Assembly: GCF_014639315.1 (NCBI RefSeq)
Contig: NZ_BMFY01000003.1
Location: forward strand, 186,001-250,000
DNA length: 64,000 bases
Direction of reading: 5' to 3'
DNA from: Sediminivirga luteola
GTDB lineage: Bacteria > Actinomycetota > Actinomycetes > Actinomycetales > Brevibacteriaceae
Translations under genes and position numbers: made by a program
Notes under the pieces: generated by a model
What the model saw: only the letters and a program-made list of their open reading frames with translations
Databases searched by the model: none
Told to the model about the DNA's origin: nothing
Shown: in pieces, positions 41,958-51,768 of the stretch
Layout: every line of letters begins with the position of its first letter
How positions within the stretch are numbered: position 1 is the stretch's first letter

Positions 41958-42379
41958 GCCTCCACGGTAGGCGACTGCCTGTACGCGCCGATGACCTGGT
42001 CGAGGATGCGGACCGTCTCCTGCTGCCGGCGGATCTCGCGTTCGAGCCGGTCCCGGTGCGCACGCAGATCCTCGATCAGCAGCGGCGTGCGGAGGGAGGC
42101 GTCCACCATGCACGGCAGCATCGGCGCGATGGTGCGGCTGCTGAGCCCGGCGGCGAAGAGGTGCTGGATGAGGATGACGCGCTCGGCGGATCCGGGTGCG
42201 AAGCGCCGGTGCCCGGCCGCGCTCCGCTCGGATTCCAGCAGGCCCTGCTGCTCGTAGTAGCGGAGCGAGCGCACGCTCACCCCGGTGGCGGCGGCCAGAG
42301 CGCCGATGCTCATCGCCGCCGGGCGATCCTCCGGCGCGTTCGTACCGGGCCCTCCGGTTGCCTCAGCGGCGCCCGTCAT
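41954..42379 (-). CDS. MerR-family transcriptional regulator
   Basis: 141 residues: an N-terminal MerR helix-turn-helix (AMSIGALAAATGVSVRSLRYYEQQGLLESERSAAGHRRF, about residues 22-60), a dimerisation helix (HRDRLEREIRRQQETVRILDQVI) and a short effector region. A cysteine sits at LPCMVD, but the CueR C-terminal Cys-x7-Cys metal loop is absent, so copper sensing is doubtful. It overlaps copB upstream and the Rid gene downstream by ATGA, so it is translated with the copper operon. Confidence 0.85.
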   Translation of the reverse strand: MTGAAEATGGPGTNAPEDRPAAMSIGALAAATGVSVRSLRYYEQQGLLESERSAAGHRRFAPGSAERVILIQHLFAAGLSSRTIAPMLPCMVDASLRTPLLIEDLRAHRDRLEREIRRQQETVRILDQVIGAYRQSPTVEA

Positions 42380-44511
42380 CGCCGGCCCCGGAGGAACGTG
42401 CCGGTGCTGGTCTCAGGCCGCAGGTCGAGGCGGCGTAGCAGCTGGGCGTTGAGCGCGACGACGACGGTGGAGGCCGACATCAGGATCGCGCCGACGCTCA
42501 TCGGCAGCACGAATCCGACCGGCGCGAGGATGCCCGCGGCCAGGGGTACGGACACCAGGTTGTACCCGGCGGCCCACCACAGGTTCTGCTTCATCTTGCG
42601 ATAGCTGGCGCGGGAGAGGTCGATGACCGAGAGCACCGAACGCGGATCGGAGGAGGCGAGGATGACCCCGGCCGAGCCGATGGCGACATCGGTGCCGGCG
42701 CCGATGGCGATGCCGACATCTGCCTGCGCGAGGGCGGGAGCGTCGTTGACGCCGTCACCGACCATGGCGACCTTCTTCCCTTCGTGCTGGAGTTCGGCAA
42801 CCTTCGCGGCCTTGTCCTCGGGGCGGACTCCGGCGAACACGCGGTCGATGCCGAGCTCGGCAGCGACGGTGTCGGCGACGGCCCGGGCGTCGCCGGTGAT
42901 CATCACGACCTGCGCGCCGGCGGCGTGGAGCGCATCGACGGCGTCCCTGGACTCCGGGCGGATCTCATCGGCCAGCCGCAGGGCGCCGATGACCTCGCCG
43001 TCGGCGAGGACATGCAGGATGATCGCTCCCTCGGATCGCCACTGCTCGGCAACCGGCAGCTCGCCGAGCTGGTGCTGCTCCAGCAGGTAGGGGCCGCCGA
43101 CCTCAACCGCGGTGTCTCCGTGTTCATCGGTGACGGTTGCCTTGACTCCCACGGCGGGAGACGAGGAGAAGTCGCGGGCATGGGGGACGGCGAGGCCGCG
43201 TTCCTTCGCGGCCCCGGTGATGGCGCGAGCCAGGGGGTGCTCGCTGCCGGCCTCGGCGGCCGCGGCCAGCGCCAGCACCTCGTCGTCGGTCCGGCCAGCG
43301 ACCGGGTCGGTGCTGGTGACGGTGGGCTCGCCCTTGGTGAGAGTGCCGGTCTTGTCGAACAGCACCGCGTCGACGGTGCGCATCGACTCCAGGGCGAGGC
43401 GGTCCTTGATGAGTACGCCGCCGCGGGCGGCGCGCTCGGTCGCGATGGAGACCACCAGCGGGATCGCCAGCCCCAGCGCGTGGGGGCAGGCGATGACCAG
43501 CACCGTGATGGTGCGCACCACCGCGGTGTCCGGCAGGCCGAGGATGGACCAGACCACGGCGGTGATCGCGGCGGCGCCGAGCGCGAACCAGAACAGCCAC
43601 GCCGCGGCGACGTCGGCGATCCGCTGCGCGCGGGAGGAGGATGCCTGGGCATCGGCGACCAGCTTCTGAATGCCCGCCAGAGCGGTGTCGTCACCGGTCG
43701 CGGTGACCTCGACCCGTAGTCCCGAGTCGGTGGCGACAGTGCCGGCGACCACCGAGTCACCCACCTCACGGCGCACGGTCTTGGATTCGCCGGTGACCAT
43801 CGACTCGTCCATCGAGGCTGACCCGTCGACGATCCGTCCATCGGCGGGCACCGCCGATCCGGGACGCACGATGATGAGATCGCCGACGGCGAGGTGGGCG
43901 GGAGCGATTTTCACGACGTCGTCGCCGGTGATTTTCTCGGCCTCATCGGGCAGCAGGGCAGCCAGGGAGTCCAGGGCTGAGGTCGTCTGGGCCAGCGATC
44001 GCATCTCGACCCAGTGACCGAGCAGCATGATCACCACCAGCAGGGCCAGTTCCCACCAGAAGTTCAGCTCATGGTCCAGCAGGCGCAGGCTCGCACCCCA
44101 GGAGGCGAGGAACGCCACCGTGATGGCCAGCCCGATGAGCAGCATCATGCCGGGCTTGCCGGAGCGGATCTCGCCGAGCGCGCCGGTCAGGAACGGCCAG
44201 CCTCCCCAGGCGTAGATCACGGTCCCCAGGACGGGCGAGATCCACCAGATCCATCCCGCCTCGGGCAGGTGGTAGCCGATGAGGTGGGCGAACATGTCGT
44301 TGAAGCCGACCACCGGCACCGCCAAGGCGAGCATGATCCAGAACAGCCGCCGGAACTGCCCGACGTGATCGCCATGACCCGCATGGCCGTCATGGCCGCC
44401 GTGGTGGTCGTGACCGTGAGGTGTGCCCTCGGCTCCGCGGTGATCCGCGTGATCCGCGTGATGGGCGTGGCCGGTGTGGTCCCCGCCGTGGCGGGTGGCG
44501 TGTTCGTTCAT
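42376..44511 (-). CDS. copB: Copper-translocating P-type ATPase, CopB type (P1B-3)
   Basis: 711 residues exporting copper from the cytoplasm. A very His-rich N-terminus (about residues 1-55, HAHHADHADH and GHDHHGGHDGHAGHGDH) replaces a heavy-metal-associated domain. The membrane metal site is CPH (VIACPHALGLAIP), diagnostic of CopB. Other motifs: TGES, DKTGTLTKGEP, SEHPLARAI (HP locus) and [18 protein letters not shown]. The ATG at 44511 is chosen for the His-rich start. It overlaps the merR start by four bases. Confidence 0.93.
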   Translation of the reverse strand: MNEHATRHGGDHTGHAHHADHADHRGAEGTPHGHDHHGGHDGHAGHGDHVGQFRRLFWIMLALAVPVVGFNDMFAHLIGYHLPEAGWIWWISPVLGTVIYAWGGWPFLTGALGEIRSGKPGMMLLIGLAITVAFLASWGASLRLLDHELNFWWELALLVVIMLLGHWVEMRSLAQTTSALDSLAALLPDEAEKITGDDVVKIAPAHLAVGDLIIVRPGSAVPADGRIVDGSASMDESMVTGESKTVRREVGDSVVAGTVATDSGLRVEVTATGDDTALAGIQKLVADAQASSSRAQRIADVAAAWLFWFALGAAAITAVVWSILGLPDTAVVRTITVLVIACPHALGLAIPLVVSIATERAARGGVLIKDRLALESMRTVDAVLFDKTGTLTKGEPTVTSTDPVAGRTDDEVLALAAAAEAGSEHPLARAITGAAKERGLAVPHARDFSSSPAVGVKATVTDEHGDTAVEVGGPYLLEQHQLGELPVAEQWRSEGAIILHVLADGEVIGALRLADEIRPESRDAVDALHAAGAQVVMITGDARAVADTVAAELGIDRVFAGVRPEDKAAKVAELQHEGKKVAMVGDGVNDAPALAQADVGIAIGAGTDVAIGSAGVILASSDPRSVLSVIDLSRASYRKMKQNLWWAAGYNLVSVPLAAGILAPVGFVLPMSVGAILMSASTVVVALNAQLLRRLDLRPETSTGTFLRGRR

Positions 44512-44570
44512 GTTCGTCTCTCCGATGTGCCGGCGCTTGGCGGCGGCGCTGGTGGCGTGGCTGCCGCGTC

Positions 44571-45166
44571 TCAGGGCGCGGGCTGTATCTCGCTCTCGAC
44601 GACCCACTTGTGGTTGGTCATGGTCATGCCGCCGGCTTCGACGTCGACGACGTAGACGGTCTCCTCGGTCGAGGAGACGATCGTGGCCCTCGCCCCGTCC
44701 ATGCCCTCCATGTGCGCGGCGGCAAGGGTGACCTCGGTGCCATCGGGCAGGCGGCCGTCGCCAGCATCGGCGAGTTCTTCCTGGACGACCCAGCGATGAT
44801 CGGTAATGGGGTCGCCACCGGTGGTGGGGGTGTAGTCAACCGCGTACGTGTAGGTGTCGTAAGCGCCCGCGATCGTCGCCGCCGCCCCGTCCATGCCCGC
44901 CATGTGGTCCGCGGTCAGGGTGACCTCGGTGCCGATGGGGTAGGTGGGGTCTGTGGCCTCGGTCATGCCCTCGGGCACCGGGCCGCCGTCGGCCGGGTGA
45001 TCCATCCCGCCATGCTCGCCGTGATCCTGGGAGGTGCCTGGGGCGAGTCCTCGTCGGCGTCGTCAGCAACACAGCCGGTGAGCAGAACGGTGATGCTGAG
45101 CAGTCCTGCGCCCACGACGGCACCCAGACGCCTGGGCGAGCGCTGGTCAGTTCGTCGTGTCATCAT
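44571..45166 (-). pseudogene. YdhK-like (DUF1541) copper-locus lipoprotein gene with a frameshift
   Basis: The 5' part (from the ATG at 45166) encodes a lipoprotein signal ending VLLTGC and an acidic stretch. The mature domain is in another frame, running to the stop at 44571. It carries two DUF1541 repeats, each with EVTL..(D/A)HM.GMDGA.ATI and H(R/K)WVV. The frames join perfectly if one base is added to the four-G run at 45040-45043 (C run on the coding strand). This gives DSPPGTSQDHGEHGG. So the gene carries a one-base deletion, a sequencing error, or possibly a slippery site. It lies between the YHS gene and copB. Confidence 0.8.
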
Positions 45167-45194
45167 GTGTGTCCTTCCACCCTGCGACCCGGTC

Positions 45195-45470
45195 TCAGGC
45201 CGCGTTCGCATAGCGGTCGGGATCGGCGTCGAACAGGGGCCCGCAGGAGGCGCAGCAGAGCCAGTAGCGCTGTCCGTTGTGGTCGCGGACCAGGCCGGCG
45301 GCTTCCGCCTCGGCTTTGACGACCGGGCTGCCGGCCATGACGGGGCACTCGGCCATCTCGGCCGCGGGCGTCTGGGCGAGTGCCTCGGCGCTTGGACCGT
45401 GGCCGCTGCATCCGCCTCCGGACGCGGAAGTGCTCCCGGTGCCGGTGTGGTGGTGGTCGTGTGCGGTCAT
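45195..45470 (-). CDS. YHS-domain metal-binding protein
   Basis: 91 residues. A His/Gly/Ser-rich start (MTAHDHHHTG) precedes a YHS domain, ECPVMAGSPVVKAEAEAAGLVRDHNGQRYWLCCASCGPLFDADPDRYA, with four cysteines (ECPVM, LCCASC). YHS proteins accompany copper ATPases and probably act as cytoplasmic copper carriers. It lies 45 bp downstream of copA and 28 bp upstream of the lipoprotein start, in one operon. Confidence 0.88.
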   Translation of the reverse strand: MTAHDHHHTGTGSTSASGGGCSGHGPSAEALAQTPAAEMAECPVMAGSPVVKAEAEAAGLVRDHNGQRYWLCCASCGPLFDADPDRYANAA

Positions 45471-45515
45471 CGGAGGTGTCCTCTCGGTAGCGGTGATGAC
45501 GATGAGGTGGCCGGG

Positions 45516-47909
45516 TCAGGCGTTCACCGGTTCGCGTGCCGGTGCAGGAGCGTCACCGGCGGGCGCGGCCTCGTCGTCGGCTTTGGCCTTGAAGGTCCGC
45601 AGCCTGAGGCTGTTGGTGACGACGAATACGCTGGACAGGGCCATCGCGGCCCCGGCGAGCATCGGGTTCAGCAGCCCGAACGCCGCCAGCGGGATGGCCG
45701 CGGTGTTGTAGGCGAAGGCCCAGAACAGATTCGTCTTGATCGTGCCCAGGGTGCGTCTCGACAGCCTGATGGCGTCCGCGGCCGCGCGCAGGTCCCCGCG
45801 CACGAGGGTGATGTCGGCAGCTTCGATGGCGACGTCGGTGCCAGTGCCCATCGCCAGGCCGAGGTCGGCCTGGGCCAGGGCGGGGGCGTCGTTGACGCCG
45901 TCACCGACCATCGCGACCGCCTTGCCCTCGGCTTGCAGCCGGGTGATCACGTCCACCTTGTCCTTGGGCAGGACCTCTGCGATCACCTGCTCGATGCCGG
46001 CCTCGGCGGCGACCTGCTCGGCCACCGCCTGGTTGTCACCGGTCAGCAGCACCGGCGTCAGGCCGAGCTCCCTGAACTGGCGAATCGCTTCGGCGGACGT
46101 GAGCTTGATCTGGTCGGAGACCACAAGCACGCCACACGCGGCGCCGTCCCAGCCGACAGCGATCGCGGTCTTGCCCTGTGACTCGGCAGCCTGCTTGGCA
46201 GTCTTGAGGTCGTCATCGAGGCACTGGGACCACTCGGCCAGCAGCGACTCACGCCCGGCGAGCACGGTGTGACCGTCGACGACCCCTGTGACGCCCTTGC
46301 CCTCGATGTTCTCGAACGACTCCGGGGTGGGCAGTTCGCCGACCTCGGCGGTGGCGCCAGTGGCGATGGCCTGGGCGATCGGGTGCTCGGAGTAGTCCTC
46401 CAGGCCCCCGGCGAGGCGCAGCAGCTCAGCCCGGTCCACCCCAGCAGCGGGGATCACGTCGGTGAGGGTCATCTTGCCGGTGGTGACGGTGCCGGTCTTG
46501 TCCAGCACGATCGTGTCCACGCGCCTGGTGGATTCCAGGACCTCCGGCCCCTTGATGAGCACGCCCATCTGCGCGCCGCGGCCGGTGCCGACCAACAGCG
46601 CCGTCGGGGTGGCGAGCCCCAGGGCGCAGGGGCAGGCGATGATCAGCACCGCCACGGCGGCGGTGAACCCGGCGGAGAGCGGGAATCCGGCGCCGATCCA
46701 CGCCCCGAGCGCCGCGACGGCGATGGCGATCGCGATCGGTACGAACACTCCGGACACGCGGTCCGCCAGACGCTGGATCTCCGCTTTCCCGGACTGCGCG
46801 TCCTCGACCATCCTGGCCATCTGCGCCAGCTGCGTGTCCGCGCCGATCCGGGTGGCCCGGACCACCAGACGCCCGCCGGCATTGACGGTCGCACCGGTGA
46901 CGGCGTCACCCTCGCCGACGTCGGCCGGCATCGATTCACCGGTCAGCATGGAAGCGTCGACGGCGCTGCTGCCGGCGACGACGACGCCGTCGGCCGCGAT
47001 CTTCTCCCCGGGGCGGACGACGAACTTATCACCGACCTGAAGATCCTCCACGGGGACGCGTTCTTCCAGCTGTTCCCTGCCGGGTCCCCTCCGCAGCAGT
47101 GAGACCTCCTTGGCGCCGAGCTCCAGGAGCGCGCGCAGCGCAGCGCCGGCCCGGCGCTTGGAGCGCTTCTCGATGTAGCGGCCGAGCAGGATGAAGGTGA
47201 TCACGCCCGCCGCGACTTCGAGGTAGATGTGCCCGAGCCCGTCGGACCGGGAAATGGTCAGCTCGAAGGGATGGACTACGCCGGGCTGGCCGGCGGTTCC
47301 GAAGAACAACGCGACGATGGACCAGAGCAGCGCGGAGACGGTGCCCACGGAGATCAGGGTGTCCATGCTGGCGGCGCCGTGCCGGAGATTCGTCCAGGCG
47401 GCCCGGTGGAACGGCCAGCCGGCCCACACCACGACCGGGGCGGCCAGGACGAGGGAGGCGAAGCCCCAGTAGTCGAACTGCAGGGCGGGAACCATCGCCA
47501 TCGCGATCACCGGCACCGACAGCAGCGCTGAGACCAGCAGCCGCTGCCGCAGCGCCTCCAGCTCGGGATCGCTGTCTCGGTCGGCCTCCTGTCCGCGATT
47601 CTCGGCGATGGCTGGGGGAGCGGGCAGCTGCGCGGTGTATCCGGCCTTCTGGACTTCGGTGATGAGCGTCTGCGGATCGATGTCCGGGGGAGCCAGGACT
47701 CGCGCCTTCTCGGTCGCGTAGTTCACGCTGGCGCTGACGCCGAGGAGTTTGTTCAGTTTCTTCTCCACGCGCATCGCGCAGGAGGCGCAGGTCATCCCGC
47801 CGATGAGGAGCTCGATGGCGGTGTTCTCCTGCGCGGCCGTGTTCTCCTGCGCGGCGGCGTTGCCGGCCGGGCGGGCTGGACTGCCGTGCTGGGGCTCAGT
47901 GCTGGTCAT
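45516..47909 (-). CDS. copA: Copper-exporting P-type ATPase, CopA type (P1B-1)
   Basis: 797 residues. An N-terminal HMA domain with [16 protein letters not shown] (about residues 33-95) precedes eight helices. Further motifs are the CPC metal site ([13 protein letters not shown]), [24 protein letters not shown] and [18 protein letters not shown]. It pumps Cu(I) out of the cytoplasm. Residues 16-29 contain a direct duplication [12 protein letters not shown] (18-bp repeat in DNA), harmless low-complexity sequence before the HMA domain. GAGAGGAC precedes the ATG at 47909, which overlaps the upstream gene by 14 bases. Confidence 0.95.
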
Positions 47910-48198
47910 GATCGTCCTCTCCGGCCGGGTGGGGCCGTGCCGGGGAGTGGTCGTCGCCGCCGTCCGGTTCCGCACTGGGATCTGCGGGTCCGCTCGGGTG
48001 GGCCGGCACGTCCTCGTCCATCCAGTCACGCACGGCCTCCGGCGGCACGACGGCCCCGGCGACGGCGTAGCTGCAGACGAAGACGACGACCAGGCCGGCG
48101 AAGTACAGCGCGAGCTTCACGGGTGCGCGCATCGCCGGCGGAGTTCCGCCTGTCCGGTCACCCTGACGCCGCCCCTGCGGGCGCCGGCCGTTGGCCAT
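47896..48198 (-). CDS. Small single-helix membrane protein of the copper operon
   Basis: 100 residues: a basic cytoplasmic start ([18 protein letters not shown]), one helix (about residues 27-49, [20 protein letters not shown]) and an outside tail rich in Asp, His and Pro ending EDDHDQH that could bind metal. It is the first gene after the CsoR-like operators and overlaps copA by 14 bases. The ATG at 48198 has GAGAGGGG upstream; the longer open frame runs through the promoter. Similar small proteins precede copA in other actinobacteria, but I know no function. Confidence 0.75.
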
Positions 48199-48695: not shown

Positions 48696-49331
48696 TCACG
48701 CCGGGGCGGTGCGCTCCAGGAGCGTGCGGACCGCATCGGCGACGTCATCGGGTGCGTCCGCGGCGAGATCGTGTCCGCCCCCGGGCACGATCCGCAGGGC
48801 GGCATCGGGCAAGGTCGCGGCAAGCGCACGCGCGGCGGGGAGATTCGCGCGGTCCTTGCTGCCGCACAGCACGAGCGCCGGCGCATGGATGCGGGGCACA
48901 TCGGCACGCAGATCGACTCCGGCGGCCGCGTCGAGGAGGGACAGGAACGTCGTCTTGTCCAGGCCCGCCGGCAGCGGCAGCGCCCGTCCGGGAATCGCCC
49001 GGAGCACGGCGCGCTGGACGCGCATCAGCGCCGCGTTCGGGCGGATCTGGCTGCCGCTGAGCAGCAGCCCGGTGACGCGGTCCGGATTCGCGGCGGCGTA
49101 GCGGGTGGCGATCATCCCGCCGATCGACAGTCCGATCAGGGTGACTGAACTCGCTCCGGCTGCGCGGATCCGCTCGTCCAGGCCGCCGAGCGCCGCCTCG
49201 AAGGAGAACGGGGTGGCCAGATCGCTGGGCGCCACCGCCAGCACCGGACGCCCGTGCAGGCGGGCCACCTGCTCGTCCCATGCACGGGAATCCTGCCCGG
49301 CACCGGCGATGAAGACCACGAGATGCGTCAT
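48696..49331 (-). CDS. Alpha/beta hydrolase
   Basis: 211 residues: LVVFIAGAGQDSRAWDEQVARL (oxyanion region), nucleophile elbow LIGLSIGGMIATRYAAANP, acid VLCGSKDRANLP and histidine VPGGGHDLAADAP. This is a complete triad of a small esterase or lyase-like hydrolase. ATG at 49331 chosen by alignment with the family; an ATG at 49343 is also in frame, and no clear ribosome site separates them. The neighbouring gene on the same strand starts far upstream, so it probably has its own promoter. Substrate unknown. Confidence 0.78.
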   Translation of the reverse strand: MTHLVVFIAGAGQDSRAWDEQVARLHGRPVLAVAPSDLATPFSFEAALGGLDERIRAAGASSVTLIGLSIGGMIATRYAAANPDRVTGLLLSGSQIRPNAALMRVQRAVLRAIPGRALPLPAGLDKTTFLSLLDAAAGVDLRADVPRIHAPALVLCGSKDRANLPAARALAATLPDAALRIVPGGGHDLAADAPDDVADAVRTLLERTAPA

Positions 49332-49448
49332 AGGCATCATCATCACACGGCTACGGGCGCGCCTCGCCCCGCACGCGCCTGCGCACGGTACCGCCGACCC
49401 CGCGTTGCTGGCGAGGACGTCGACCATGCGAAAGGGGAGCCGTCGTGT

Positions 49449-50450
49449 TCATGCCCCGGCCTCCCGTGCAACGTCTGGCGCGGAGGCGTGCGCCGGATTG
49501 GCGTTCAGCCACTCCAGTACCACGCGGGCGTGCCCGTCGGGAGGGAAGACAGGGTAGAACACATGACTGATCACGCCCTCGTCAACCACGAGCGCCAGTC
49601 TGCGGTAGACCGTCAGGGTGCCGGCCGTGAAGACCGGGAGGCCGGGATCGGCAGCCAGGACGAGGGATTCGTCGGTGAGCAGGGGATAGGGGAGCCGCAG
49701 TGCCCGGACCAGGGCCTGCTGGTACTCCGCGCGCTGGCTGGAGAGGCCGAATACGTGCCGGACGCCGCTGCGCACCAGATCCGCATAATGGTTGCGCATA
49801 TCGCAGTTGTGCGGACTGCAGCCGCGCGCCCCAGGAATCGAGTCCCATCCCTCCGGCATATCGTGCTCGGGCGAGCCGGTCGTCGGGAAGACGTAGATCA
49901 GGACCCGTCCGTTCCCCAGCTCATTCAGGCTGATGCTGCCCCCGTCGGTGGACGGCAGGGCCACGGCTGGTAGCGGCATGCCCACCAGATGTGCTGCTGC
50001 GCCGTCGTCCACCGGAGCCTCGAGGTCGTCCGGGAGCGGAGCGAGATTCGGATTCGCGGCATCGAGCTCCCTCAGCTCGTTCATCATCCGGCGGCTGGCC
50101 ACCGTCAGGTTTTCCACCAGCGCCTCCCGCTGCCGGCTGAGCGTCGTGACCGCCGCGTCGATCCTCTCGATGGCGCGCCGGTATTCGGTCAGGGTGGAGG
50201 GGCACGCATCGGCGTGCGGGCTGCCCGCGTTAAGGCAGTCCACGAATGGCGCCATGTCCTTCAGCGGAATGCCCAGCGAGTTCAGGCGATGGACCTGCGA
50301 GATCACCCGGAGCTGACGCTCGTCGTAGAGCCGATACCCGTTCTCTGCGCGATGAGGTACGACGAGGCCGAGAGCCTCGTAACCGCGGAGTGCCTTGAGG
50401 GACACCCCGGTCTCTGCGGAGGCCTCGCCGGACCGACGTAGTGTTGTCAT
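49449..50450 (-). CDS. MerR regulator fused to a peroxiredoxin domain
   Basis: 333 residues. Residues 1-75 are a MerR DNA-binding domain (SGEASAETGVSLKALRGYEALGLV, ENGYRLYDERQLRVI). About residues 85-130 form the dimer helix, preceded by Cys72 and Cys83. From about 155 a thioredoxin-fold peroxiredoxin/AhpC-TSA domain follows (MPLPAVALPSTDGGSISLNEL, LIYVFPTTGSP, IPGARGCSPHNCDMR with Cys211 and Cys216, VFGLSSQ, YPLLTDESL). It could sense peroxide with the fused domain and act directly on DNA. It is divergent from a glycosyltransferase and carries its own MerR-type promoter. No frameshift is needed, so the fusion is real. Confidence 0.85.
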   Translation of the reverse strand: MTTLRRSGEASAETGVSLKALRGYEALGLVVPHRAENGYRLYDERQLRVISQVHRLNSLGIPLKDMAPFVDCLNAGSPHADACPSTLTEYRRAIERIDAAVTTLSRQREALVENLTVASRRMMNELRELDAANPNLAPLPDDLEAPVDDGAAAHLVGMPLPAVALPSTDGGSISLNELGNGRVLIYVFPTTGSPEHDMPEGWDSIPGARGCSPHNCDMRNHYADLVRSGVRHVFGLSSQRAEYQQALVRALRLPYPLLTDESLVLAADPGLPVFTAGTLTVYRRLALVVDEGVISHVFYPVFPPDGHARVVLEWLNANPAHASAPDVAREAGA

Positions 50451-50456
50451 GCCACG

Positions 50457-50488
50457 ACCGTAAACCCGTGCCCTGAGGGCAGGGTCAA
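50457..50488 (-). promoter_or_regulatory. MerR-type promoter with over-long spacer and central dyad
   Basis: On the minus strand TTGACC (50483-50488), a 20-bp spacer and TACGGT (50457-50462), six bases before the ATG at 50450. The spacer holds the palindrome GCCCT-C-AGGGC (50470-50480). Long spacers with a central dyad are the hallmark of MerR-controlled promoters. Autoregulation is inferred. Confidence 0.6.
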
Positions 50489-50520
50489 GACGGCGATGCC
50501 GGGCATGGGAAGGAGGACCG

Positions 50521-51768
50521 GTGACCCGTACCGTGCTGTTCGCCCCGGAGACGTTCAATCTGGCCGAGGTGACGCGGGGCGTGGAGATCGCCCGCAGCTT
50601 GTCCAGGCTGGCCGGGGACGTCGTTTGCGTCTTCGCCGGGTATTCGCGCCGCTACGCTCACATCGTCAAGGAGGCGGGGTTCGCCTTCCGTCCCCTGGAA
50701 CCGGAGCTCACCGACCGGCAGGCGGACCAGCTGATCGCCGTGGATCAGGGACGCGGGCTCAGGCATCCGTTCACCACCCGGATGCTGGCCGAGCGGGTAT
50801 CGAACGAGCGCGCCCTGATCCGTGAGCTGGCTGCTGATGCGGTGGTGATCGGCACCACCCTGAGCCAGTTCGTCTCCGCCCGGGCCGAGGGCGTGCCGCT
50901 GGTCTACGCCAAGCCGTTCGCCTACTCGCTGCCGCATGTGCGCCATATGCGCTCCACCGGCGTCCTCGGCCGGCGCACCGTGGCAGCGCGCATCCTCGAC
51001 GGTGCCGCGGCGACGGCAGTCCGGACGGTGCTTCCGCGGATCCCGGTACTGCCCCGGGCATTCCCGCGGGTGGCGCGCGCCCACGGCGTATCGCTGCCGC
51101 CGACGGCGCTCGAAGCGCTGGACGCCGATCTGAACCTGATCACCACCGCCCCGCATCTTCTCCCGGCGGGAGTGCCCTTGCCGGAGAGCTATCGCGTGGT
51201 CGGCCCGGTGTTCGCCTCCCTGCCCGGTCCGGTTCCGCCGCTGGTGGCAGAACTCGCTTCACGCCCGGAGCCGCTGATCTACGTCGCCACCGGTTCATCC
51301 GGGAACAGGGAGCTCGTCCGCGCGCTGCTGATGAGGCTCGGGGCGGCCCGCTGCCAGGTGCTCGCCCCGGTCCGCCAGTACCTCAGCTCCGACGATGTGC
51401 ACGCCTTGCCCGGCAACGTCCACGTGACCGGCTGGCTGCCGGCCGACCGGCTGGGCGGTGCGATCGACCTGGCCATCACCCACGGCGGCGAGGGCACCGT
51501 GCAGACCAGCAGCGTGCGGGGCTGGCCGTTCATCGGGATCCCGCTGCAGGCGGAACAGCGGTTCAACATCCAGCGTTGCGTCGAATTCGGTTCCGCGCGG
51601 ATGGTGATGCCGCGCGAGCTGCGCAGGACCGACTGGCCGGCGCTGGTGGAGGACGCCCTCGCCGACGGGTACCTCCGGCGGCAGGCAGGCCGGATGGCGC
51701 ATCGGCTCCACGGCGTCGACGGCGCAGCCGCCGCGGCCCGTCATATCGCGGCGCTCATCGGCGCCTGA
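50521..51768 (+). CDS. Glycosyltransferase, MGT/UGT-like (GT1 family)
   Basis: 415 residues with two Rossmann domains of the GT-B fold. N-terminal TRTVLFAPETFNLAEVTRGVEIARSL; C-terminal donor-binding domain LIYVATGSSGN, VHVTGWLPADRLGGAIDLAITHGGEGTVQTSSVRGWPFIGIPLQAEQRFNIQRC. The last block corresponds to the HGG...P...Q nucleotide-sugar motif. It probably glycosylates a small molecule or lipid; the acceptor is unknown. The start is GTG with AGGAGG upstream. It shares a 70-bp divergent region with the MerR-peroxiredoxin gene, which could regulate it. Confidence 0.82.
   Translation: MTRTVLFAPETFNLAEVTRGVEIARSLSRLAGDVVCVFAGYSRRYAHIVKEAGFAFRPLEPELTDRQADQLIAVDQGRGLRHPFTTRMLAERVSNERALIRELAADAVVIGTTLSQFVSARAEGVPLVYAKPFAYSLPHVRHMRSTGVLGRRTVAARILDGAAATAVRTVLPRIPVLPRAFPRVARAHGVSLPPTALEALDADLNLITTAPHLLPAGVPLPESYRVVGPVFASLPGPVPPLVAELASRPEPLIYVATGSSGNRELVRALLMRLGAARCQVLAPVRQYLSSDDVHALPGNVHVTGWLPADRLGGAIDLAITHGGEGTVQTSSVRGWPFIGIPLQAEQRFNIQRCVEFGSARMVMPRELRRTDWPALVEDALADGYLRRQAGRMAHRLHGVDGAAAAARHIAALIGA

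Follow-up and report, generated by a model that had tools for sequence, protein, structure and literature searches.

Regulators of the MerR family are known to use promoters in which a spacer of 19–20 bp holds the operator. Within the family, SoxR carries a four-cysteine [2Fe-2S] site after the dimerisation helix, and the metal sensors CueR, ZntR, CadR and MerR carry cysteine ligands after the same helix. BmrR, Mta, TipA and EcmrR, each having a C-terminal effector domain, are the family members closest in plan to the protein described here. On the enzyme side, the active-site motif of peroxiredoxins (Prx) is PxxxTxxC. Relays from a peroxidase to a transcription factor have so far been studied in two-protein systems, such as Orp1-Yap1 of yeast and Prx2-STAT3 of human, and in engineered sensor fusions. 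In both of these natural relays, a thiol peroxidase is proposed to act with the transcription factor (PMC7481202). No report of a MerR-peroxiredoxin fusion, or of the related MerR-thioredoxin pair, was found in the literature covered, a scope outside which bioRxiv preprints and many subscription papers lie.

The gene analysed here lies in a stretch of 64,000 nucleotides of Sediminivirga luteola DNA (contig NZ_BMFY01000003.1, positions 186,001 to 250,000), which we call the window and whose numbering is used throughout. The original prediction was of a continuous 333-residue ORF, on no named strand, joining a MerR head to a thioredoxin-fold peroxiredoxin tail, and our analysis bore this out. 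One open frame runs along the minus strand (49449..50450), as do all features of the gene given below, with its ATG at 50450, its stop at 49449-49451 and no internal stops; the plus strand of the same region is not open. A promoter-like element that stops 6 nt short of the ATG supports this start, and a longer ORF with a TTG start would begin upstream of that element. Pfam placed MerR_1 at residues 6–65 (E 2.2e-11; PF13411 44.1 bits against a cut-off of 21.6, PF00376 39.5 against 28.2), and this winged helix-turn-helix (50256..50435) also agrees with the model pLDDT. Redoxin was placed at residues 156–304 (E 1.6e-14; PF08534 54.4 bits against 26.6) and overlaps AhpC-TSA (7.3e-10; PF00578 39.3 against 26), so that head and tail all score above the gathering scores. 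Together with PDB profile matches, which are BCP/PrxQ-type proteins (2a4v, 5enu, 3drn and 5epf first), these hits delimit a redoxin/peroxiredoxin domain at residues 148–320 (49491..50009), preceded by a linker at residues 119–147 (50010..50096). The cysteines of the protein are 72, 83, 211 and 216, with no others; the motif GCSPHNC occupies residues 210–216, and Cys72 and Cys83 were located where they had been predicted.

A sequencing frameshift as the source of the fusion is ruled out, since one-ORF fusions recur in 30 further sequences whose frames were checked. As to its distribution, on which the original prediction passed no judgement, the fusion was found in 7 of 396 genomes of an order sample, 8 of 394 of a class sample and 2 of 396 of a phylum sample (all three counts include the window's genome) and in 19 of 249 genomes of one family with large genomes, streptomycete-like by size; these samples overlap. 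Besides the window, three full-length one-ORF fusions (G009, G003 and G028) were present in a 59-genome sample. In a plasmid collection, six of the 49 matching records covered at least 80% of the query, all six being Streptomyces plasmids with the genes annotated as either 'redoxin family protein' or 'MerR family transcriptional regulator'. Two of these six were analysed, and both halves of each pass the Pfam cut-offs. No relatives were found in the viral contigs searched, and a one-protein scan of genome contigs returned 36 loci, all matching MerR residues only. The fusion is single copy in its own genome (3.86 Mb, 45 contigs), where one of eight matches is full length.

Our comparison set consists of 31 fusions, 29 from genomes of the window's class and two from Streptomyces plasmids; it joins a first set of 17 (15 genomes and the two plasmids) with 14 fetched later, when two of 16 loci (L220 and L221) were set aside for lack of a MerR. 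These are related sequences and not independent ones. One member (L142, in G1022) is a 349-aa fusion whose linker holds a repeated QDRTAPP stretch. Cysteines equivalent to 72, 83, 211 and 216 were present in 31 of 31 fusions, and 18 of the 31 have exactly these four. Pro189, Thr191, Ala208 and Arg284 were likewise kept in all 31. In 27 of 27 closely related pairs, dN was less than half of dS in the MerR part and also in the Prx part, so both halves are under selection in the relatives; in the linker of the same pairs dN was often close to or above dS. The window itself, being too diverged, is in none of these pairs.

Within the redoxin half, alignment with BCP-type chains makes the invariant Cys211 (49818..49820) the presumed peroxidatic and the invariant Cys216 (49803..49805) the presumed resolving cysteine. 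The two are five residues apart (GCxxxxC, a BCP/PrxQ trait) in 31 of 31 fusions, and the invariant Arg284 (49599..49601), aligned with an Arg of 5enu, is presumed to be catalytic. The PxxxTxxC motif was not found in contiguous form. In this Prx family the peroxidatic cysteine is preceded by an insertion of about 15 residues, which separates Pro189 and the invariant Thr191 (49878..49880) from Cys211. The alignment puts the Thr position of the motif before this insertion, two residues from Thr191, and residue 208, at −3 of the peroxidatic cysteine, is Ala in 31 of 31 rather than the canonical Thr. Both BCP/PrxQ equivalog models scored below their cut-offs (NF006960 42.2 bits against 140; NF053650 26.7 against 260). 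Because the insertion breaks the motif and the canonical Thr is replaced by Ala, peroxidase activity of this domain, as judged from its residues, is plausible but not assured. The redoxin half had pLDDT mostly below 50 in both AlphaFold models, one built with 20 MerR-only relatives and the other from the single sequence. A standalone Prx in G564 (L148) has lost the resolving-Cys position (GCLQETR) and has Ala for the Arg before GC; it is probably a decayed or repurposed copy.

The MerR half was modelled with more confidence. With the 20 MerR-only relatives, block pLDDT was at least 90 up to residue 60. A helix at residues 63–73 ends beside Cys72 (50235..50237), and a long helix, of the MerR dimerisation type by position, begins at Cys83 (50202..50204) and spans residues 83–132 (50055..50204) with a block pLDDT of about 67–93; in the single-sequence model it spans 85–132. 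In the model with relatives, then, the two invariant cysteines flank the loop that links the DNA-binding part to the dimerisation helix. The pLDDT of this loop is about 67, and a disulfide between them could shift these two parts relative to each other. On alignment with CueR, Cys83 falls three residues after CueR Ser77, near the position of the inter-subunit ligand in ZntR and MerR.

Analysis of the upstream region revealed a predicted promoter/operator of the gene itself at 50457..50488, with a −35 box TTGACC (50488-50483) and a −10 box TACGGT (50462-50457). Only 6 nt separate the −10 box from the ATG, and the mRNA of the window's fusion is therefore probably leaderless. The spacer is 20 bp long and holds the inverted repeat TGCCCTCAGGGCA; the over-long spacer (19–20 bp) with an inverted repeat, a trait of the MerR family, is thus found here upstream of the fusion gene itself. 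A TTGACC box (at least five of six positions), exactly 20 bp and TANNNT stand directly upstream of 31 of 31 fusions, one of which has the 5-of-6 box TGGACC. The layout was first seen in nine fusions and then in 22 of 22 examined later (8 and 14), and it occurred in 0.2% of mononucleotide-shuffled upstream regions of 17 fusions. The arms of the repeat co-vary: 239 of 279 cells are complementary, whereas 2000 shuffles averaged 212 and never exceeded 229. Examples are CCCGGACC/GGTCCGGG in G978 and CCTTGCCC/GGGCAAGG in L214. A search of the window with the promoter pattern returned its own site only, with zero expected by chance. A standard sigma-70 scan of 49200-50700, which allows spacers of 16–18 only, found no promoter. 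The fusion protein is predicted to bind this site at its own promoter.

The window's operator is among the least regular ones, with a repeat shorter than in most fusions (eight paired positions, as in three others of the 17) and a shifted centre. This irregularity, the long end branches of the window's fusion in the Prx and MerR trees (1.36 and 1.27) and its absence from the close pairs used for dN/dS would fit a degenerate relic, that is, a diverged and non-functional fusion in this genome. We consider such a relic very improbable, since the ORF is intact, the promoter box pair is intact, and every residue invariant in the other fusions checked is present.

Our preferred reading, which we regard as fairly probable, is that the gene is an autoactivated, self-contained thiol-stress unit, whose MerR half is the switch and whose redoxin half is the output. 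The MerR half would bind as a dimer to the inverted repeat that lies between the −35 and −10 boxes of its own promoter. Cys72 and Cys83 at the hinge would be oxidised, or react otherwise, and the resulting change of conformation would untwist the promoter, as in MerR proteins, so that more of the same protein is made. The BCP/PrxQ-like domain would act as a thiol peroxidase through Cys211/Cys216 and cellular thioredoxin, and it may also pass oxidation on to Cys72/Cys83 of the same chain or of the partner chain. We infer activation rather than repression, thiol oxidation as the chemical signal and a peroxidase role for the redoxin domain; the in-chain relay is speculative. The original prediction had held that a regulator carrying its own peroxidase-like sensor could couple thiol oxidation directly to promoter twisting. 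Of this, the regulator with its peroxiredoxin-type domain stands; its cysteines are kept in 31 of 31 fusions, and it has a MerR-type promoter with a long spacer to act on. The modification is that its likely target is its own promoter.

We then looked at the operator pattern elsewhere. In the window's own genome, it matched its own site at two mismatches and six other sites, all at three, against six for the reversed pattern. In 15 fusion genomes, with up to three mismatches allowed, the fusion's own site was recovered in 13; in the other two, G249 and G903, it is too different and falls outside the pattern. The same 15 genomes gave five single matches elsewhere, at three mismatches, against one for the reversed-pattern control. 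Four of these five lie inside other, unrelated genes, and the fifth (L222, 2513-2557, in G249) neighbours a gene for another MerR protein. This protein has 113 aa and a Cys-x11-12-Cys pair at about the place of Cys72/Cys83, and between its gene and a divergent alpha/beta hydrolase gene a good inverted repeat stands in a TTGACC-like/20 bp/TANNNT promoter. It is presumably the operator of that MerR itself, and the locus is likely a related MerR circuit. No second regulon target was found in the own genome or in the 15 fusion genomes at up to three mismatches, a threshold beyond which weaker sites are possible, and the gene therefore most likely autoregulates.

The gap between the fusion and a divergent EryCIII-like glycosyltransferase gene (50521-51768, plus strand) is only 70 bp (50451-50520), which puts the MerR operator in a shared regulatory region, and the glycosyltransferase gene may also be a target in the window's genome. 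Directly downstream on the same strand is an alpha/beta hydrolase gene (48696-49427, minus strand), possibly cotranscribed with the fusion; a terminator scan of 49200-50700 gave no terminator-like site. Further away, the minus strand encodes two P-type metal ATPases, one at 42376-44607 and one, which has an HMA domain, at 45516-48029; small ORFs lie between, and a further MerR gene is located near 42038-42304. Judged by position and family match, 42376-48029 looks like a copper/heavy-metal cluster.

These copper-type ATPases nearby, and the fact that the MerR half finds its best match in CueR among both MerR models and PDB chains, raise the question of whether Cys72/Cys83 binds a metal or an electrophile, as in most MerR relatives, rather than sensing peroxide. 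We hold this to be unlikely. There is no Cys between residues 84 and 210, so the protein is without Cys ligands, and without any Cys pair, after the dimerisation helix; the CueR, ZntR, CadR and MerR equivalog models all scored below cut-off by wide margins. No copy of the operator was found at the ATPases of the window at up to three mismatches, and no DKTGT, the P-type ATPase motif, was found in the 4–11 kb around each of 10 other fusions. Nor does the protein fit SoxR or NmlR. It has no cysteines for a SoxR cluster, only the four named above, and it scored 28.5 bits against 116.9 with TIGR01950; the NmlR equivalog NF041849 gave 30.4 bits against 175.

In the MerR tree, which kept 15 of 53 other MerRs, the 17 fusions of the first set form one clade (100/99), joined to 11 MerR-only relatives (98/96) and apart from the 15 others; the 14 later fusions are in no tree. 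The 11 relatives are the MerR-only matches from the phylum sample. In 10 of them a thioredoxin-like gene (WCxPC) starts −43 to +70 nt from the MerR stop, and nine of these ten genes overlap the MerR gene; two of them were checked with Pfam. The same 10 relatives have a palindromic TTGCC[TC]-19 bp-TANNNT promoter of their own. These MerR-thioredoxin pairs (L108-L117) carry an operator like CCTTGACGTC-N-GCGTCAAGG within a promoter with a 19-bp spacer. For the eleventh relative (L118), neither a thioredoxin gene nor a palindromic promoter was found. From the MerR kinship and the layout of the pairs, we conclude that the fusion belongs to a MerR-redoxin module with two branches, one using a thioredoxin and the other a peroxiredoxin. 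The Cys pair is present in 11 of 11 of these relatives, which have no fused domain. This suggests that the MerR part could sense alone, with the peroxiredoxin as its output. Seven further MerRs (L002, L006, L016, L017, L018, L019 and L022), of which L002 and L006 belong to the window's genome, have Cys-x11-12-Cys at about the position of Cys72/Cys83 with slightly wider spacing, hinting at a wider thiol-sensing MerR class.

The overlapping gene pairs of the sister MerRs also suggest how the fusion may have arisen. A stop codon could have been lost between a MerR gene and its redoxin gene, and the two halves would then act independently, the attachment doing nothing but equalise dosage. We find this mere compaction quite possible, though short of probable. 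Standalone Prx such as L012 begin at M-[ST]-D-Y-..LP, exactly at the junction place, and an in-frame ATG or GTG occurs there in 20 of 31 fusions (13 of 17 and 7 of 14), 17 of the 20 having predicted Shine-Dalgarno pairing at or beyond the 10% point of a background pooled over all codon positions. Some free peroxiredoxin may therefore be made beside the fusion in these. However, the other 11 fusions, including the window, have no such start and yet are fused. The linker of the window has only Met122-Met123, without a good Shine-Dalgarno, and in the window's genome the fused form is therefore probably the sole product. Three fusions (the window, G1081 and G903) have a −10 box ending 6 nt before the ATG, and all three are without a junction start; as it is also absent from 8 of the 28 other fusions, these cases are too few and too related to build on. 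In two of these eight (L213 and L219), an in-frame ATG is present at a more upstream position.

The single MerR clade also speaks against mere compaction, because the joined state looks as if it had been kept since one origin with the linker changing. The Prx tree, which kept 48 of 49 standalone genes (L072 was dropped, having no PGARGC in frame), gave another picture. Five standalone Prx genes fall among the fusions, and a single clade for the Prx halves of the 17 fusions was rejected (AU p 5e-5; the bootstrap had not settled). As the MerR halves are one clade, we read the five nested standalone genes as later separations, which fits separation at the junction start. Alternatively, one MerR lineage may have captured Prx genes several times.

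The same evidence bears on the in-chain redox relay, in which peroxide would oxidise Cys211 and thiol-disulfide exchange would carry the oxidation to Cys72/Cys83, making the peroxidase the sensor. Here the redoxin domain would detect peroxide and oxidise its own MerR hinge, and so turn on the gene that encodes it, perhaps as the sole target; this would be a natural counterpart, in one chain, of Orp1-Yap1 or Prx2-STAT3. The covalent attachment of the two halves is in its favour, as are the four cysteines kept throughout the set and sole in 18 of its members, the lack of a second target among the matches found, the persistence of the joined form in 11 fusions that have no junction start and, for the window, the expectation of the fused form only. 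On the other hand, the Cys pair stands at about the same place in the thioredoxin-linked MerRs and in several other unfused ones, the Prx tree places standalone Prx genes within the fusions, a junction start could yield free Prx in 20 of 31, and the linker often has dN near dS. We can advance the relay only tentatively, and rate it as somewhat doubtful. The likelihoods given here overlap, since the relay and the compaction readings are both sub-cases of autoregulation.

If autoactivation is right, the gene would be a minimal redox circuit with sensor, enzyme and promoter in about 1.04 kb, and if the relay is also true, it would be a complete sense-relay-respond loop made of one protein and one promoter. 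The fusion makes it possible to test whether a peroxide-specific relay needs no more than a transcription factor with a thiol peroxidase tethered to it. Scattered and differently annotated genes can further be grouped into one MerR-redoxin module with a predicted operator, of which the fusion, on its sequence features, is a variant.

Compared with the described systems, the fusion resembles BmrR, Mta, TipA and EcmrR in its N-terminal winged helix-turn-helix, long dimerisation helix, C-terminal domain and long-spacer promoter. It differs from them in that its C-terminal domain is a redoxin and not a ligand-binding domain, and in that its predicted target is its own gene. By the role proposed for it, it is like SoxR a redox regulator of the MerR family, but it lacks the iron-sulfur cysteine cluster, its four cysteines being a hinge pair and a redoxin pair. 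With the BCP/PrxQ proteins it shares a redoxin domain by profile, the GCxxxxC pair and the conserved Arg and Pro, whereas the insertion of about 15 residues before the peroxidatic cysteine, the Ala in place of Thr and the attached regulator set it apart. Orp1-Yap1 and Prx2-STAT3 each consist of two proteins, while the fusion is one chain, in which a relay is hypothetical. The nearest likeness in kinship is to the MerR-thioredoxin gene pairs of 10 of the 11 MerR-only relatives, which share the MerR subfamily, the Cys pair, a palindromic promoter of their own and a redoxin output, but which consist of separate, mostly overlapping genes, encode a thioredoxin and have a 19-bp spacer with a different repeat.
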